A stretch of 64,000 nt of DNA from Mesaphorura yosii (Eukaryota; Arthropoda; Collembola; Poduromorpha; Tullbergiidae). The notes under the pieces were generated by a model. The model worked only from the letters and a program-made list of their open reading frames with translations, made no database searches and was not told the origin of the DNA. This document shows, piece after piece, positions 13,396-63,847 of the stretch. The stretch covers positions 186,001 to 250,000 of the forward strand of contig WIXG01000039.1 of the NCBI GenBank assembly GCA_009869945.1, given 5' to 3'. The translations under genes and the position numbers were made by a program. Numbering within the stretch: position 1 is the first letter of the stretch; each line of letters starts with the position of its first letter.

Positions 13396-13403
13396 TATAA
13401 ATA
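13396..13403 (+). promoter_or_regulatory. TATA box of the laccase-like gene
   Basis: TATAAATA lies 66 nt upstream of the signal-peptide ATG at 13469. Transcription would be expected to start 25-30 nt downstream, near 13427. This places the in-frame ATG at 13406 upstream of the mRNA and supports 13469 as the real start. Confidence 0.6.
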
Positions 13404-13468: not shown

Positions 13469-15807
13469 ATGAAGCGTCAGCTTCTTCCAATTTTGGTCTT
13501 AATTTGCCTCCGGTATTTCAGTTTCTTCGGTGCGGCCAGTGCGGAAGTCATTGAGAAAGTTTTCGACGTTCATTACATCAGTGGTTCGCCTGACGGAGTC
13601 TTTAAGGCAAAAATCCTCGCAATCAACGGCCTCTTTCCCGGCCCGACAATTGAAGCCAAGATTGGAGACATTCTTCGGGTGAAACTCATCAACAATATTC
13701 AAGACGGGCAAAATACAACTATACACTGGCATGGAATTCACCATCAGGGCACGCCTTTTGAAGATGGGACTAGTCAAATCAGTCAGTGCCCGCTGAAGGC
13801 TGGACATCATCAAATCTACGAGTTTCTCCTGAATCAGACAGGGACGTACTGGTGAGTTTTTAAGTTCTGACAATTCCAAGCTTTTCGTGCATTGCAATCT
13901 CCGAACTGAGCTTTAAAATCCGTTGAAAAATCCATCCTGAAAAGCTCTTATGAAAGCATGATACTCAGATAGGCGTTCTGGCATTCAGCTGAGTTGTTCG
14001 TTGGACGGTGATTTTTGTGAATGAAAGGTTTTAATCACTCTCCAAAATGTTCGCCTTTGCCTGGTGCCTGGGAACTTGCGCCATTGTCATCATATAATTT
14101 GCAAAGGGTTCAAGGATCAGGCGGCCAATCGACGCTAAGTGCCTGTTTAAAGTTGTACAACGATTTTTCGAACGTCACGAGATACTCGAGAGTTACATTG
14201 TTGTCCACACAGGAGATAAAGAAATCAATCCAATCAATTAGTCAGCAGTTGCCCTTGTACTTCTGTTCGACAATTAATTGTTTGGGATCAGGAAAAGTCC
14301 AAACCAGCGCAGATTCATCAACACTACTAGGAACCAATTAGGGACAAATATTTTACCAGGCAGGTGAACAATCACTGACGTGCCTCTTACACCAAAATTT
14401 AATTAACCAAACTATTCAGCAAACAAGCCGATCACACGCATTCCGCCGATTGTCTCGCCAGCCTTGATTGATTGATAAGATGATTTTGATGATCATTTTG
14501 TGTTCAGGTATCACGCTCATGTGAACAGTCAATACACAGAAGGGCTTTGGGGTTCACTGATCATTCACAATGAACAGGAACGGTACGAGTACGACGACGA
14601 GATTCTTATCACACTGAACGACTGGTATCTTCGAACAGCTCACGAGAACGAAGCGTGGCATTTATCCCTGATGGCAAGGGGTGTTCCTCCGTATCCAGAC
14701 ACAGGAATGATCAACGGCCGTGGCCGCTACAACTGTACAATTGCAGAAATGCGAAATTTTAACTGCAGCGCAGCCGAGCAGAGGCGACACATATTCAAAG
14801 TCGCACCAGGGAAAACGTACCGAATTCGAGTCATCCACACTGGCAGTTTCGCTCCTTTCAGCTTCTCAATTGACGGCCATAAACTGCATGTCATTGAAAT
14901 GGACGGGATTGACACAATTCGACCTGTCCCGGTAGATGTAGCGGAGCTCGCCGCGGCTCAGCGATACTCCTTCCTAGTCAGAATGGACGCTGATCTCGCA
15001 AATAATCCTGATGGCACGTTCTTGATTCGAGGTTACATGCTGAAAGAAAAGATCATCAACATCAAGAACGAAAACATAAACCCGTACCCCGAGGCTGTGA
15101 TCCGAAATGTCACGGCAGTACTAAAATACCAGTTCAGGCAGGACCCTTCAGACGATTTCCAAACCGAGCCACATGACTTCAACGCTGTTGTTCCAGAGCC
15201 TCCTTCAGAGAACCCCGTGTACCTTGACGAAGACTGGCTGCAGCCAAGCGACGGTGTCCTCGCACCAGCTTACTACGACCAAGAATTTATTCTGTCAGTG
15301 ACATTCTTGGAAGATCACGAAGGAATCCGTCGCGGGTCGTTCAATGCGAGTCCGTTTAAATTGCCTGACCATAAACCGCTGCTATTTTCGCTGGTACAGG
15401 GAGAAGAAATTCCATCGGACGTATTCCCGCTTTACATTCGCTACGGGGATGTTGTACAGGTCGTCATCAACAATCCCTTCTACGGCCCACACCCTTTCCA
15501 TCTGCACGGGTACTCTTTCTGGGTGTTGGGGTCCGGGGAGGCTGAGGAAGGCAACTACGACCCTGGCAAGCACAGCTTGATCTTGAATGGTGCGAAACGC
15601 GATACGGTTATCGTCGAAGAGCTGTCGTGGACCGTCATTCGATTTGTGGCTGACAATCCTGGCTTGTGGACGTTCCACTGTCACAATGACTGGCACAACT
15701 ACTCCGGCATGGCGATGACATTCATTGTTGCACCAGAAATGGTGAGGAAGTTTGAAATCCCAAAAGAAGCCAGACGAGTGTGTCAGATGCATGGGCTGGA
15801 ATTGTAA
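13469..15807 (+). CDS. Secreted laccase / ascorbate-oxidase-like multicopper oxidase
   Basis: Exons 13469-13851 and 14508-15807 (intron 656 nt, splitting a Trp codon) encode 560 residues. Multicopper oxidases couple one-electron oxidation of phenols, ascorbate or metals to reduction of O2 to water. Residues 1-25 are a signal peptide ending GAASA, so it is secreted. Three cupredoxin domains carry all four copper signatures: HWHG at 86-89, WYHAH at 128-132, HPFHLHG at 456-462 and HCHNDWHNYSGM at 518-529. Type 1 copper ligands are H456, C519 and H524 with M529 axial. The protein lacks the Cys-rich N-terminal extension of insect Laccase-2 (about 700 residues). Motif wording such as GTYWYHAHVNSQYTEGLWG and VIRFVADNPGLWTFHCH looks closer to fungal/plant enzymes. 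The substrate cannot be read from sequence. Poly(A) signal AATAAA at 15851-15856. Confidence 0.93.
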
Positions 15808-16107
15808 GGACCGTTGTATTTTTTAATCAGTCGTTTAAACTGTGATTATGAATAAAATAATTTCAAGACGAGATTGTCATTTTATTTCTTAAAATAACTG
15901 CATCTAAAACTTAACATTTGGTTCACATATTAAAACTTAACTTGCCTTAAAATTCATTTTTGATTCTATTCGCACACATTGCACGTCGAGCTCTCAAAGA
16001 GGTTTGTTGTCTTTTGCATATGAAGTTTAAAATTTAAGGCACAACAGACGGACTGATAGCGATTAGAGGTCACTCAAGCCATGCACAAATTGGTTTTTGT
16101 CATAATA

Positions 16108-61315: not shown

Positions 61316-62610
61316 ATGATGAACCCTTTCCTGAATAAACTGGTAAGTTTTCTACTAAATCATTTTGCTCAGCTATCGAAATCGTGAGTGCGAACTGCTT
61401 CGACAGATTCTTGAGAATCTTTTCTCCCAACTCGACAACGATGGACTCTTGAAGTCGCGTCTCGTCTGCAGGCTTTGGAATAAAGAAGTTAACCGTTTCT
61501 TACGGATGCGAAAACTTGTGAATTTTTCTGGTTCGAATACAAAACACATCTACTCATTTCTGAAGTTGATGAAGCCATATTACGACCACGATCGCGACAC
61601 CAGTGCTCATGCGGACGCTCTACCAGAAGATATGATACCATTCGCCAGATTCTCCATCCAAATCTGGGATTCGGAGTCATACCGAAGTCGTTTTGTGTCC
61701 TTGCCTGACTACAGCGAAGCGTTCTTCAACAATTACGGACAGTTCGTCAAGTACCTGCAGATAAGCTTTAATGACTTCAAAGACACCGTCCTCGACACGA
61801 AATATCGAGACTGGTTTCTTGGAGCTCTATCAAGTAACTTGAAAATTCTCGAATTGAATGGTCAGTCATCGTTTGTGCCCACCGCCTTACAAAATCAGGA
61901 CGAGTTCATATTTAATAGCAGTGAAGAGGTGAAAACATTGCCCAACCTTCGGACTCTCATCATGACGGATTTCTTTGACGAACCTGAGCCTGAAGATGCA
62001 CCAGGCGTGAGGAAGCGATTTGGCACAAGATTTATGGTCGATATTTTAAGAATGGCTCCCAATCTACAGTCACTGACCATTAACACCTTCGAAAATGTCT
62101 CAAGCTCCTTGACCGTCTCAACAATTCGAGCCCTGCAGCAGTTCTGTCGTGAGACTGGGCATTTACAAATACAACATTTGCGTCTGCAAACGCACATAAA
62201 TGACGAACTGCTAAAATTCATGTCTGCGTGCAGATTTAAACTGAAATCCTGTGAATTGAAGTGTTTGGACATTAGCACACATGGAACGCTGGCGGAATTT
62301 CTCGTGTCACAAGCCAGAACGCTCGAAAACTTGGTGCTTGGCTCTGGAAATGGAAAGACAGCGGCTACGGAAATTGCGGACGATTTCGTGTTCTCGGTGC
62401 TCGCAAATCTGAAGCGTCTCAGAAGTCTGGTGATTAGAAACTGCAAGGTAGGAGTAAGAAGTATAAAGAAATCAGCTTAGTTGTACGCTTGCATGCAGGC
62501 CAGTCATCATTATTGATGTGGATTCTTTTCTTTTATTCAAGGTTTCGGATGGTGGATTGCGATACATTACAGAAAATATGAAATTTTTGCATATAGAAGT
62601 TACAATATAA
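61316..62610 (+). CDS. F-box protein with leucine-rich-type repeats (paralogue 1)
   Basis: Exons 61316-61342, 61407-62447 and 62542-62610 give 378 residues. F-box proteins bind Skp1 in SCF ubiquitin ligases and recruit substrates through the remaining sequence. The tiny first exon encodes MMNPFLNKL. The F-box follows at once: ILENLFSQLDNDGLLKSRLV then CRLWNKEVNRF. After it come VNFSGSNTKHIYSFLKLM and degenerate leucine-rich units (LKILELNGQSSF, LPNLRTLIMTDFF, MAPNLQSLTINTF, LKSCELKCLDIS, LKRLRSLVIRNCKVSDGGLR). The last exon completes a typical LRR strand. The neighbour at 62854-63847 is a paralogue in inverted orientation with the same exon-1/intron placement. Substrate unknown. The first-exon link rests on this shared structure. 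Confidence 0.82.
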
Positions 62611-62853: not shown

Positions 62854-63847
62854 TCATGCGGGCTTGCAAATTGTCAGTTCGGATTGGGAAGCGGCGATAG
62901 CTAACAAGTCAGCGGGATCAACCACTGCTAGAAACCTGACTCGTGCTAGCCCAATCAATTTGACACTGGTCTTAATTCCCGTCGTAGCCGCAATCTTGTG
63001 ATTTCTTCGCAATACCTCCAACACAGACTCGACCAATGAACACTTTGTCTTGCAATCCATCGTATCCACTGTCAATTCGCTCACATATGGACACATTTTG
63101 AAAACGTTCAGCACGAATTGTGAGTTGAATCTACGTGGGTATTTCATATCAATGTCTCGTTCCCCAAAGCTGTCTTTCAGCGTCAGCGACCTGAGTTTGG
63201 CGAAAGTCTGACGGTCGTCTACCGAAATGGAAGCCACGTTTTTGTCTTCAAGCCCGATTGCCGATTCCCCCCAAAGTACGAGAGTTTGCAGATTTTCCAA
63301 GCGTTGGGCCATCCAAACACGGTCTTCGCAGTCCTTTAAGAATTTTTCGAAATCATTGATGCTCAGCTGTAGGTGCTTTATGCAGGGACCGAATATGTCG
63401 AAGAATCTTTTCGTCGCGTAGGGAATTAACGGAGAACAACCGTTATCTGCGCCGTGCTCACGGGCTTTCTGATCACATATCGTCATGATGAATCTAGCGT
63501 ACGGAAATCTGACGATTGCATCTTCGCATGACGCGGATTGTTGCATGGTCTCGACAAATTTTGGGACGTGCCTCACATTGGACGCGGAGAAGTTAACGGA
63601 GACTCGCTTCCTTATTTCCAGAAGCACTTCCTGGTTCCAAAGACAGCAGACCAGGCGACAGGCGGCCAAGTCGTTGGGTGGAAGGTGTTGAAAGATGTTT
63701 GATAAAATCTGGCAGAGGACAGATACACATATCAATACATAAGTTTCCAAATCTTTCATTTGTACGTTTGTTGAAGGAGAACCAAAGTAAAAGTGAAACA
63801 AGAACGAGACTTACCAATTCATTTCGCAGAGGTACAGCGTCCATCAT
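62854..63847 (-). CDS. F-box protein (paralogue 2)
   Basis: Exon 1 (63847-63815, MMDAVPLRNEL) and exon 2 (63708-62854) give 295 residues. The F-box starts at the exon junction: ILSNIFQHLPPNDLAACRLV then CCLWNQEVLLEI. This is followed by the diagnostic VNFSASNVRHVPKFVETM, matching VNFSGSNTKHIYSFLKLM of the neighbour. Leucine-rich units continue (LENLQTLVLWGES, FAKLRSLTLKDSFGERD, KMCPYVSELTVDTMDC). It is shorter than the neighbour and ends at TGA after LTICKPA without the last LRR exon, so it is either a shorter form or lacks a third exon not found. Expected to act as an SCF substrate receptor; target unknown. Confidence 0.82.

Follow-up and report, generated by a model that had tools for sequence, protein, structure and literature searches.

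In the genome paper of the springtail Folsomia candida, published in 2017, three laccases are reported as transferred, within a discussion of 87 genes that were ascribed to Rhizophagus irregularis; foreign genes were scored there as the best non-metazoan minus the best metazoan match (PMC5490193). That passage agrees with the remark, made in a preliminary description of the locus studied here, that springtails are reported to carry fungal-derived enzyme genes. The multicopper oxidases (MCOs) of R. irregularis were all assigned to the ferroxidase/laccase group in a separate study (PMC11836134). Among the matches listed in our literature search, whose coverage leaves most subscription journals outside, there were no further studies of springtail MCO families. 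Transferred springtail laccases have already been reported, and what is new here is a larger, expanded family of the same kind.

The MCO classes with which we compared this family differ at a small number of residues. According to one review of fungal MCOs, most laccases sensu stricto carry an acid at 205, Phe or Leu in the axial position and two disulphide bonds, with exceptions noted; ascorbate oxidases have an axial Met and Leu at 205; ferroxidases require equivalents of E185, D283 and D409; and the LAC-FOX type has an axial Leu, one disulphide and normally Phe at 205 (PMC10741624). The same text describes a Phanerochaete MCO with the E185 and D409 acids as an efficient ferroxidase (PMC10741624). 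A CxRxC motif has been described for invertebrate laccases (PMC11593427), and the R. irregularis study treats the signature-S2 Cys as constant in classical laccases and missing in Fet3 ferroxidases (PMC11836134).

The DNA that we analysed, referred to as the window, is a 64,000-nucleotide stretch of contig WIXG01000039.1 of the springtail Mesaphorura yosii. It contains an intact two-exon gene on the plus strand (13469–15807) that runs from an ATG at 13469 to a TAA at 15805–15807 and encodes a product of 560 amino acids. Exon 1 (13469–13851, plus strand) encodes a hydrophobic N-terminus that by eye resembles a signal peptide, followed by the greater part of cupredoxin domain 1 as far as GTYW, including the T2/T3 ligands H86 and H88. 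The sole intron (13852–14507, plus strand; 656 bp, phase 2) is of the GT-AG type, begins with GTGAGT and ends with TTCAG, and lies inside the W of GTYW/YHAH. Exon 2 (14508–15807, plus strand) encodes the remainder of domain 1 (H130 and H132), domain 2 and domain 3, the last with HPFHLHG, HCHNDWH and the axial Met529 ahead of the TAA stop. A putative TATA box, TATAAATA, is seen at 13396–13403 (plus strand), 73 bp 5′ of the ATG, and a putative polyadenylation signal, AATAAA, at 15851–15856 (plus strand). The preliminary description had pointed to a TATA box, one intron and a poly(A) signal, to which the TATA-like box at 13396, the GT-AG intron and the AATAAA at 15851 correspond; the signal peptide that it named is putative, a hydrophobic N-terminus being visible by eye, and the motifs that it quoted are all present, with GTYWYHAH straddling the splice junction.

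The protein has three Pfam Cu-oxidase domains (E values from 1.8e-30 to 3.1e-40) and 11 of 11 copper ligands (H86, H88, H130, H132, H456, H459, H461, H518, C519, H520 and H524), as had been claimed, and thus the three cupredoxin domains with ten His ligands and one Cys ligand of the MCO superfamily. There are only six Cys residues, at 13, 107, 204, 214, 519 and 553; this total matches the earlier remark that the Cys-rich N-terminus of the arthropod enzyme is missing, and the list leaves no CxRxC motif of the arthropod laccase (Lac1/Lac2) type. The T1 axial residue is Met529, and the position of the phenol-assisting acid (205/206) is occupied by Phe. Equivalents of the laccase Cys pair C85/C488 are present, and those of C117/C205 are T and S. 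The equivalents of the Fet3 iron-site residues E185, D283 and D409 are P, I and F, with the alignment around D283 being uncertain. The S2 Cys is absent from all 12 modelled genes of the window type (see below). Its absence weighs little, because it is also missing from ascorbate oxidase, from 8r7i, which we take to be an arthropod laccase, from C172, the arthropod-type laccase of this genome, and from two rows that are presumably ascomycete enzymes.

We compared these residues with each class. Laccases sensu stricto differ from the window protein, which has Phe rather than an acid, Met529 in the axial position and one Cys pair. With ascorbate oxidases it shares the axial Met, but it has Phe at 205 and scores below the cut-off of the family model TIGR03388. 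The iron acids of Fet3-type ferroxidases are replaced, and the protein agrees with the LAC-FOX enzymes in its Phe and its single Cys pair but departs from them in its axial Met. The window copy therefore fits none of the compared classes fully, because it combines an axial Met with Phe at 205 and no iron acids. On present sequence evidence, it most likely works at low to medium potential and oxidises small molecules outside the cell, such as phenols, quinols or ascorbate-like reductants, and its role would most likely be gut or surface detoxification, or cross-linking. A high-potential lignin laccase is unlikely, and the copy is most likely not a ferroxidase. The proposal of a lignin- or phenol-oxidising enzyme, taken in the fungal-laccase sense, found no support, given Phe in place of the phenol-assisting acid, the axial Met and the missing second Cys pair. 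By analogy with the superfamily, the T1 copper (H456, C519 and H524, with axial M529) would take single electrons from a small reductant, the electrons would travel through His-Cys-His (518–520) to the trinuclear cluster, and O2 would be reduced there to water.

A profile search of the genome (93.0 Mb, 1127 contigs) detected 17 Cu-oxidase_3 loci. Fourteen of these are of the window type: 12 modelled genes, placed by the tree, and two apparently broken loci, C967 and C1084, assigned by similarity. Several gene models were joined by hand. Since C967 and C1084 have stops in the matched frame, they are probably decaying copies or assembly errors. The remaining loci are C182 and C971, which are of another type, and C172, which spans at least four exons and which we class as an arthropod-type laccase from its motifs and from its best PDB match, 8r7i. 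A weak C-terminal match was also seen on C490 (E value 1.4e-5). The preliminary description dealt with this gene by itself; it is a real fungal-type gene, but one of 12 modelled window-type genes rather than a lone one.

The closest paralog is 66% identical to the window protein. A phase-2 intron at the same position in GTYW/YHAH is common to the window gene, C1019, C230 and C988, whereas C689, C435 and C449 have no introns and C440 and C118a have introns at other positions. In a dN/dS comparison of five pairs from ten models, synonymous sites were saturated in four of the five pairs (pS 0.78–0.90, pN 0.18–0.28), and the C118a/C118b pair gave a dN of 0.24 and a dS of 1.14. Recent duplication is ruled out by these pS values for the pairs tested. 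The saturated synonymous sites and the low pN suggest an old family on which purifying selection has acted.

Members of the family differ at the residues that separate the classes. The intronless C689 (726–2312) has an axial Leu, Phe at 205 and one Cys pair, which are all three LAC-FOX residues, and at the E185, D283 and D409 sites it has E, Y and D, keeping two of the three Fet3 iron acids. C118a and C118b have kept the E185 equivalent and lost that of D409. A search of the genome for the FTR1 iron permease gave no family match. A single entry of a fungal ferroxidase/laccase may have radiated into the 12-gene family, with C689 keeping iron-oxidase residues in a genome without a detectable FTR1 and the window branch evolving a T1 site that matches no compared fungal class. 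We offer this fuller scenario tentatively, as something possible rather than probable.

We next compared the window protein with proteins of known structure. In the PDB it scored 248 bits with ascorbate oxidase 1aoz, 231 with fungal laccase 9gly (32% identity across 525 residues), 202 with Fet3, 157 with 6klg, which we take to be a plant laccase, and 135 with 8r7i; the enzymes that we take to be bacterial scored at most 94 bits. A six-paralog profile gave the same order (328 for 1aoz, 328 for 9gly, 309 for Fet3, 222 for 6klg and 208 for 8r7i), with no hephaestin or ceruloplasmin by name among the best 60 of its 242 PDB rows. C172 showed the opposite pattern, with 220 bits for 8r7i against 141 for ascorbate oxidase. 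The best NCBIfam model for the window protein was L-ascorbate oxidase TIGR03388, at 303.1 bits, under the curated cut-off of 614.8. A bacterial donor was ruled out, the best 80 of 583 relatives being 23–29% identical in their best segment, and so was a viral donor, with four loci in viral contigs at 24–30% identity.

The phylogenetic position of the family was examined in a tree of 42 rows: the 12 window-type models, C172, C182 and C971, 10 of the 242 matched PDB rows (aligned stretches only, hence partial), 15 of the 80 kept bacterial loci and two of the four viral-collection loci. C967 and C1084, with their stops in frame, were left out. The animal rows are those of this genome and 8r7i only, and the tree is without plant laccases, hephaestin/ceruloplasmin and Mucoromycota. 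All 12 window-type rows fall together (100/99), C172 and 8r7i make up a separate clade (100/98), and the 17 bacterial and viral-collection rows a clade of their own. Fet3 and four fungal laccases share a branch with the window clade (94/92, and 97/96, 98/95 and 97/94 in three variants); its placement as sister to the four fungal laccases has weak support (72/42). Its nearest neighbours are all fungal, given thin animal sampling (own genome and 8r7i), and this branch serves as the closest proxy for the Mucoromycota ferroxidase/laccases. Two rows that we take to be ascomycete fall outside the branch of window and fungal sequences, so that nesting in fungi depends on a small number of rows and on a bacterial root. 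In a tree without bacteria, long-branch flags were raised for Fet3, 7zn6, 8r7i, ascorbate oxidase and C172.

Topology tests gave a consistent answer on the arthropod laccases. Grouping of the window clade with C172 and 8r7i was rejected in all four set-ups (p-AU 0.006, 0.003, 0.003 and 0.008). Grouping with C182/C971 was rejected too (p-AU 0.008). Grouping with Fet3 was not rejected (p-AU 0.265), and grouping with ascorbate oxidase 1aoz was borderline disfavoured (p-AU 0.052). A single clade of all 16 animal-side rows was rejected (p-AU 0.003), a result that does not exclude paralogy. The preliminary description had proposed such a tree and held that the protein is not arthropod Laccase-2. With the references to hand, the protein does fall outside the arthropod laccases, represented by two arthropod-type rows (p-AU 0.003–0.008), and the 135 bits for 8r7i against 248 for 1aoz point the same way. 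The likeness to both fungal and plant enzymes stated there survived in its fungal half (94/92 to 98/95), while kinship with plant ascorbate oxidase is disfavoured at a borderline level (p-AU 0.052).

C182 and C971 form a pair of their own (100/99), which joined 7zn6 in four trees (92/68, 79/69, 86/72 and 93/79), one of them with a long-branch warning. Grouping of this pair with the arthropod-type laccases was not rejected (p-AU 0.104). Both proteins have Lys at the T1 axial position, where each of the 23 remaining rows from the genome and the PDB has Met, Leu or Phe. Ascorbate oxidase 1aoz was placed with 7zn6 and C182/C971 (93/93).

Turning to the neighbourhood of the gene, a Pfam match was found in seven of ten other window ORFs scanned, and three had none. 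Downstream lie PITP, Rab11-FIP3, SUZ12 Zn, thioredoxin and MetRS domains; upstream, one ORF was scanned, and it has HTH_psq/transposase-type domains. The statement that the gene is flanked by ordinary animal genes is thus borne out on the downstream side, by the PITP to the MetRS domains, but not upstream, where the one ORF scanned is of the HTH_psq/transposase type. The contig spans at least 250 kb, and a linkage of the kind looked for in a horizontally acquired gene is present, since the contig also carries animal-type genes, on the downstream side of the oxidase. Coding GC is 0.494, compared with 0.425–0.485 in five neighbouring ORFs; being only slightly above its neighbours, it gives no clear sign of foreign origin. 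We set intron poverty aside as evidence for transfer, because the nearby PITP domain is also encoded in one long ORF. Towards the end of the window, two convergent ORFs at 61359–62477 (plus strand) and 62857–63810 (minus strand) look alike by eye and are of F-box/leucine-rich style; the former gave no Pfam match.

We conclude that the window gene encodes a fungal-type MCO that is probably secreted, and that the founder of its family probably came from a fungus before the family duplicated and then diversified. Horizontal transfer of the family founder is likely, judged from sequence comparison: a fungal MCO, which may well have been one of the ferroxidase/laccase type known from Mucoromycota, would have been acquired by an ancestor of the animal and would then have duplicated and diversified into the present family. 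The fungal-like sequence might instead be contamination of the assembly, and the HTH_psq/transposase-type ORF, the only one identified upstream, does nothing to anchor it on that side. We find this scarcely credible, since animal-type genes on the contig, lying downstream of the oxidase gene, argue against it, as does a spliceosomal intron found at the same position and in the same phase in paralogs on three other contigs. That the protein is a drifted cuticle laccase of the arthropod Lac1/Lac2 type is very improbable: the axial Met that it shares with 8r7i and C172 and its signal-like N-terminus would suit such an origin, but the AU test rejects the grouping in every set-up, the Cys-rich N-terminus and CxRxC are missing, and the genome has a separate arthropod-type laccase in C172.

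Transfer from a plant or alga of an ascorbate-oxidase-like gene would account for the top single PDB match (1aoz, 248 bits), for the best NCBIfam model (TIGR03388, 303 bits) and for the axial Met common to the two proteins. However, the model score lies under the 614.8 cut-off, 1aoz sits with 7zn6 and C182/C971 (93/93), the 205 site has Phe instead of Leu, and the grouping with 1aoz, while not clearly rejected, is disfavoured (p-AU 0.052); we regard a plant origin as improbable. Ancient vertical descent carries more weight, although we still think it unlikely. It holds that an old eukaryotic MCO paralog was kept here, and perhaps in other animals, and lost in most, so that the likeness to fungal enzymes reflects shared ancestry. 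Animal sampling limited to this genome and 8r7i, the age of the family (dS saturated in four of five pairs), a base composition near that of the host and introns in several copies are all compatible with it. Rejection of the clade of 16 animal-side rows (p-AU 0.003) counts against it, with paralogy still allowed, as does the F. candida paper, which counts three laccases as foreign, their link to the window family being by description only (PMC5490193). Acquisition from a fungus thus remains our preferred reading.

Other enzyme families in the genome were also recorded. GH45 cellulase has 12 matches, 11 above the family cut-off, including C873, C561 and C430; a survey detected GH45 in 56 of the 78 springtails and in 33 of the 54 oribatid mites that it covered (PMC13084967). 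The arginine kinase of the genome scored 588–602 bits against PDB chains 4bg4, 5zhq and 4am1, which we take to be malacostracan, 550 against 1m15 (taken to be Limulus), 542 against 5u8e (taken to be a spider) and 537 against 6ky2 (taken to be Daphnia), and two two-domain enzymes, 4rf6 and 4wo8, headed the list by virtue of two matched stretches apiece. Given the low Daphnia score, this is a weak pointer to Pancrustacea; taken with the GH45 matches, it favours a springtail. A search for COX1 gave no match. DIOX_N likewise has 12 matches, six of them on C759, C614, C382, C651, C1065 and C722, that on C759 lying within a single ORF of 335 amino acids; these genes could be further transferred oxygenases. 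For the oxidases, soil arthropods may oxidise plant or fungal phenols, or iron, by their own enzymes rather than those of microbes, and copies that differ at known activity-setting residues make this directly testable. An expanded fungal-type family would show transferred genes diversifying within an animal over long times.

Set against known systems, the window family most resembles different enzymes in different features. The LAC-FOX enzymes and R. irregularis RiMCO1-9, the latter likened to it by published description only (PMC11836134), resemble it in their three-domain build, in a single laccase-type Cys pair, in Phe as the usual residue at 205 and in the lack of the S2 Cys; the window copy differs from the LAC-FOX type in its axial Met rather than Leu and in lacking E185 and D409, and C689 (Leu, Phe, E185 and D409) is nearer. 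Ascorbate oxidase (1aoz; TIGR03388) has the axial Met and gives the top PDB and NCBIfam scores, whereas the window protein has Phe rather than Leu at 205, falls below the NCBIfam cut-off and stands apart in the tree. Fungal laccase 9gly shares the 11 ligands and one of its two Cys pairs, but in the window protein the 205/206 site is not acidic, the second Cys pair is missing and the axial residue is Met. The arthropod laccases (C172 and, as we take it, 8r7i) have the MCO domains and the axial Met in common with the window protein, but form a separate clade (100/98), and the window protein is without their Cys-rich N-terminus. The F. candida laccases, compared by description only, are likewise springtail MCO genes of apparent fungal type beside native genes (PMC5490193); three are reported there, whereas M. 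yosii has 12 modelled window-type genes that differ at activity-setting residues.
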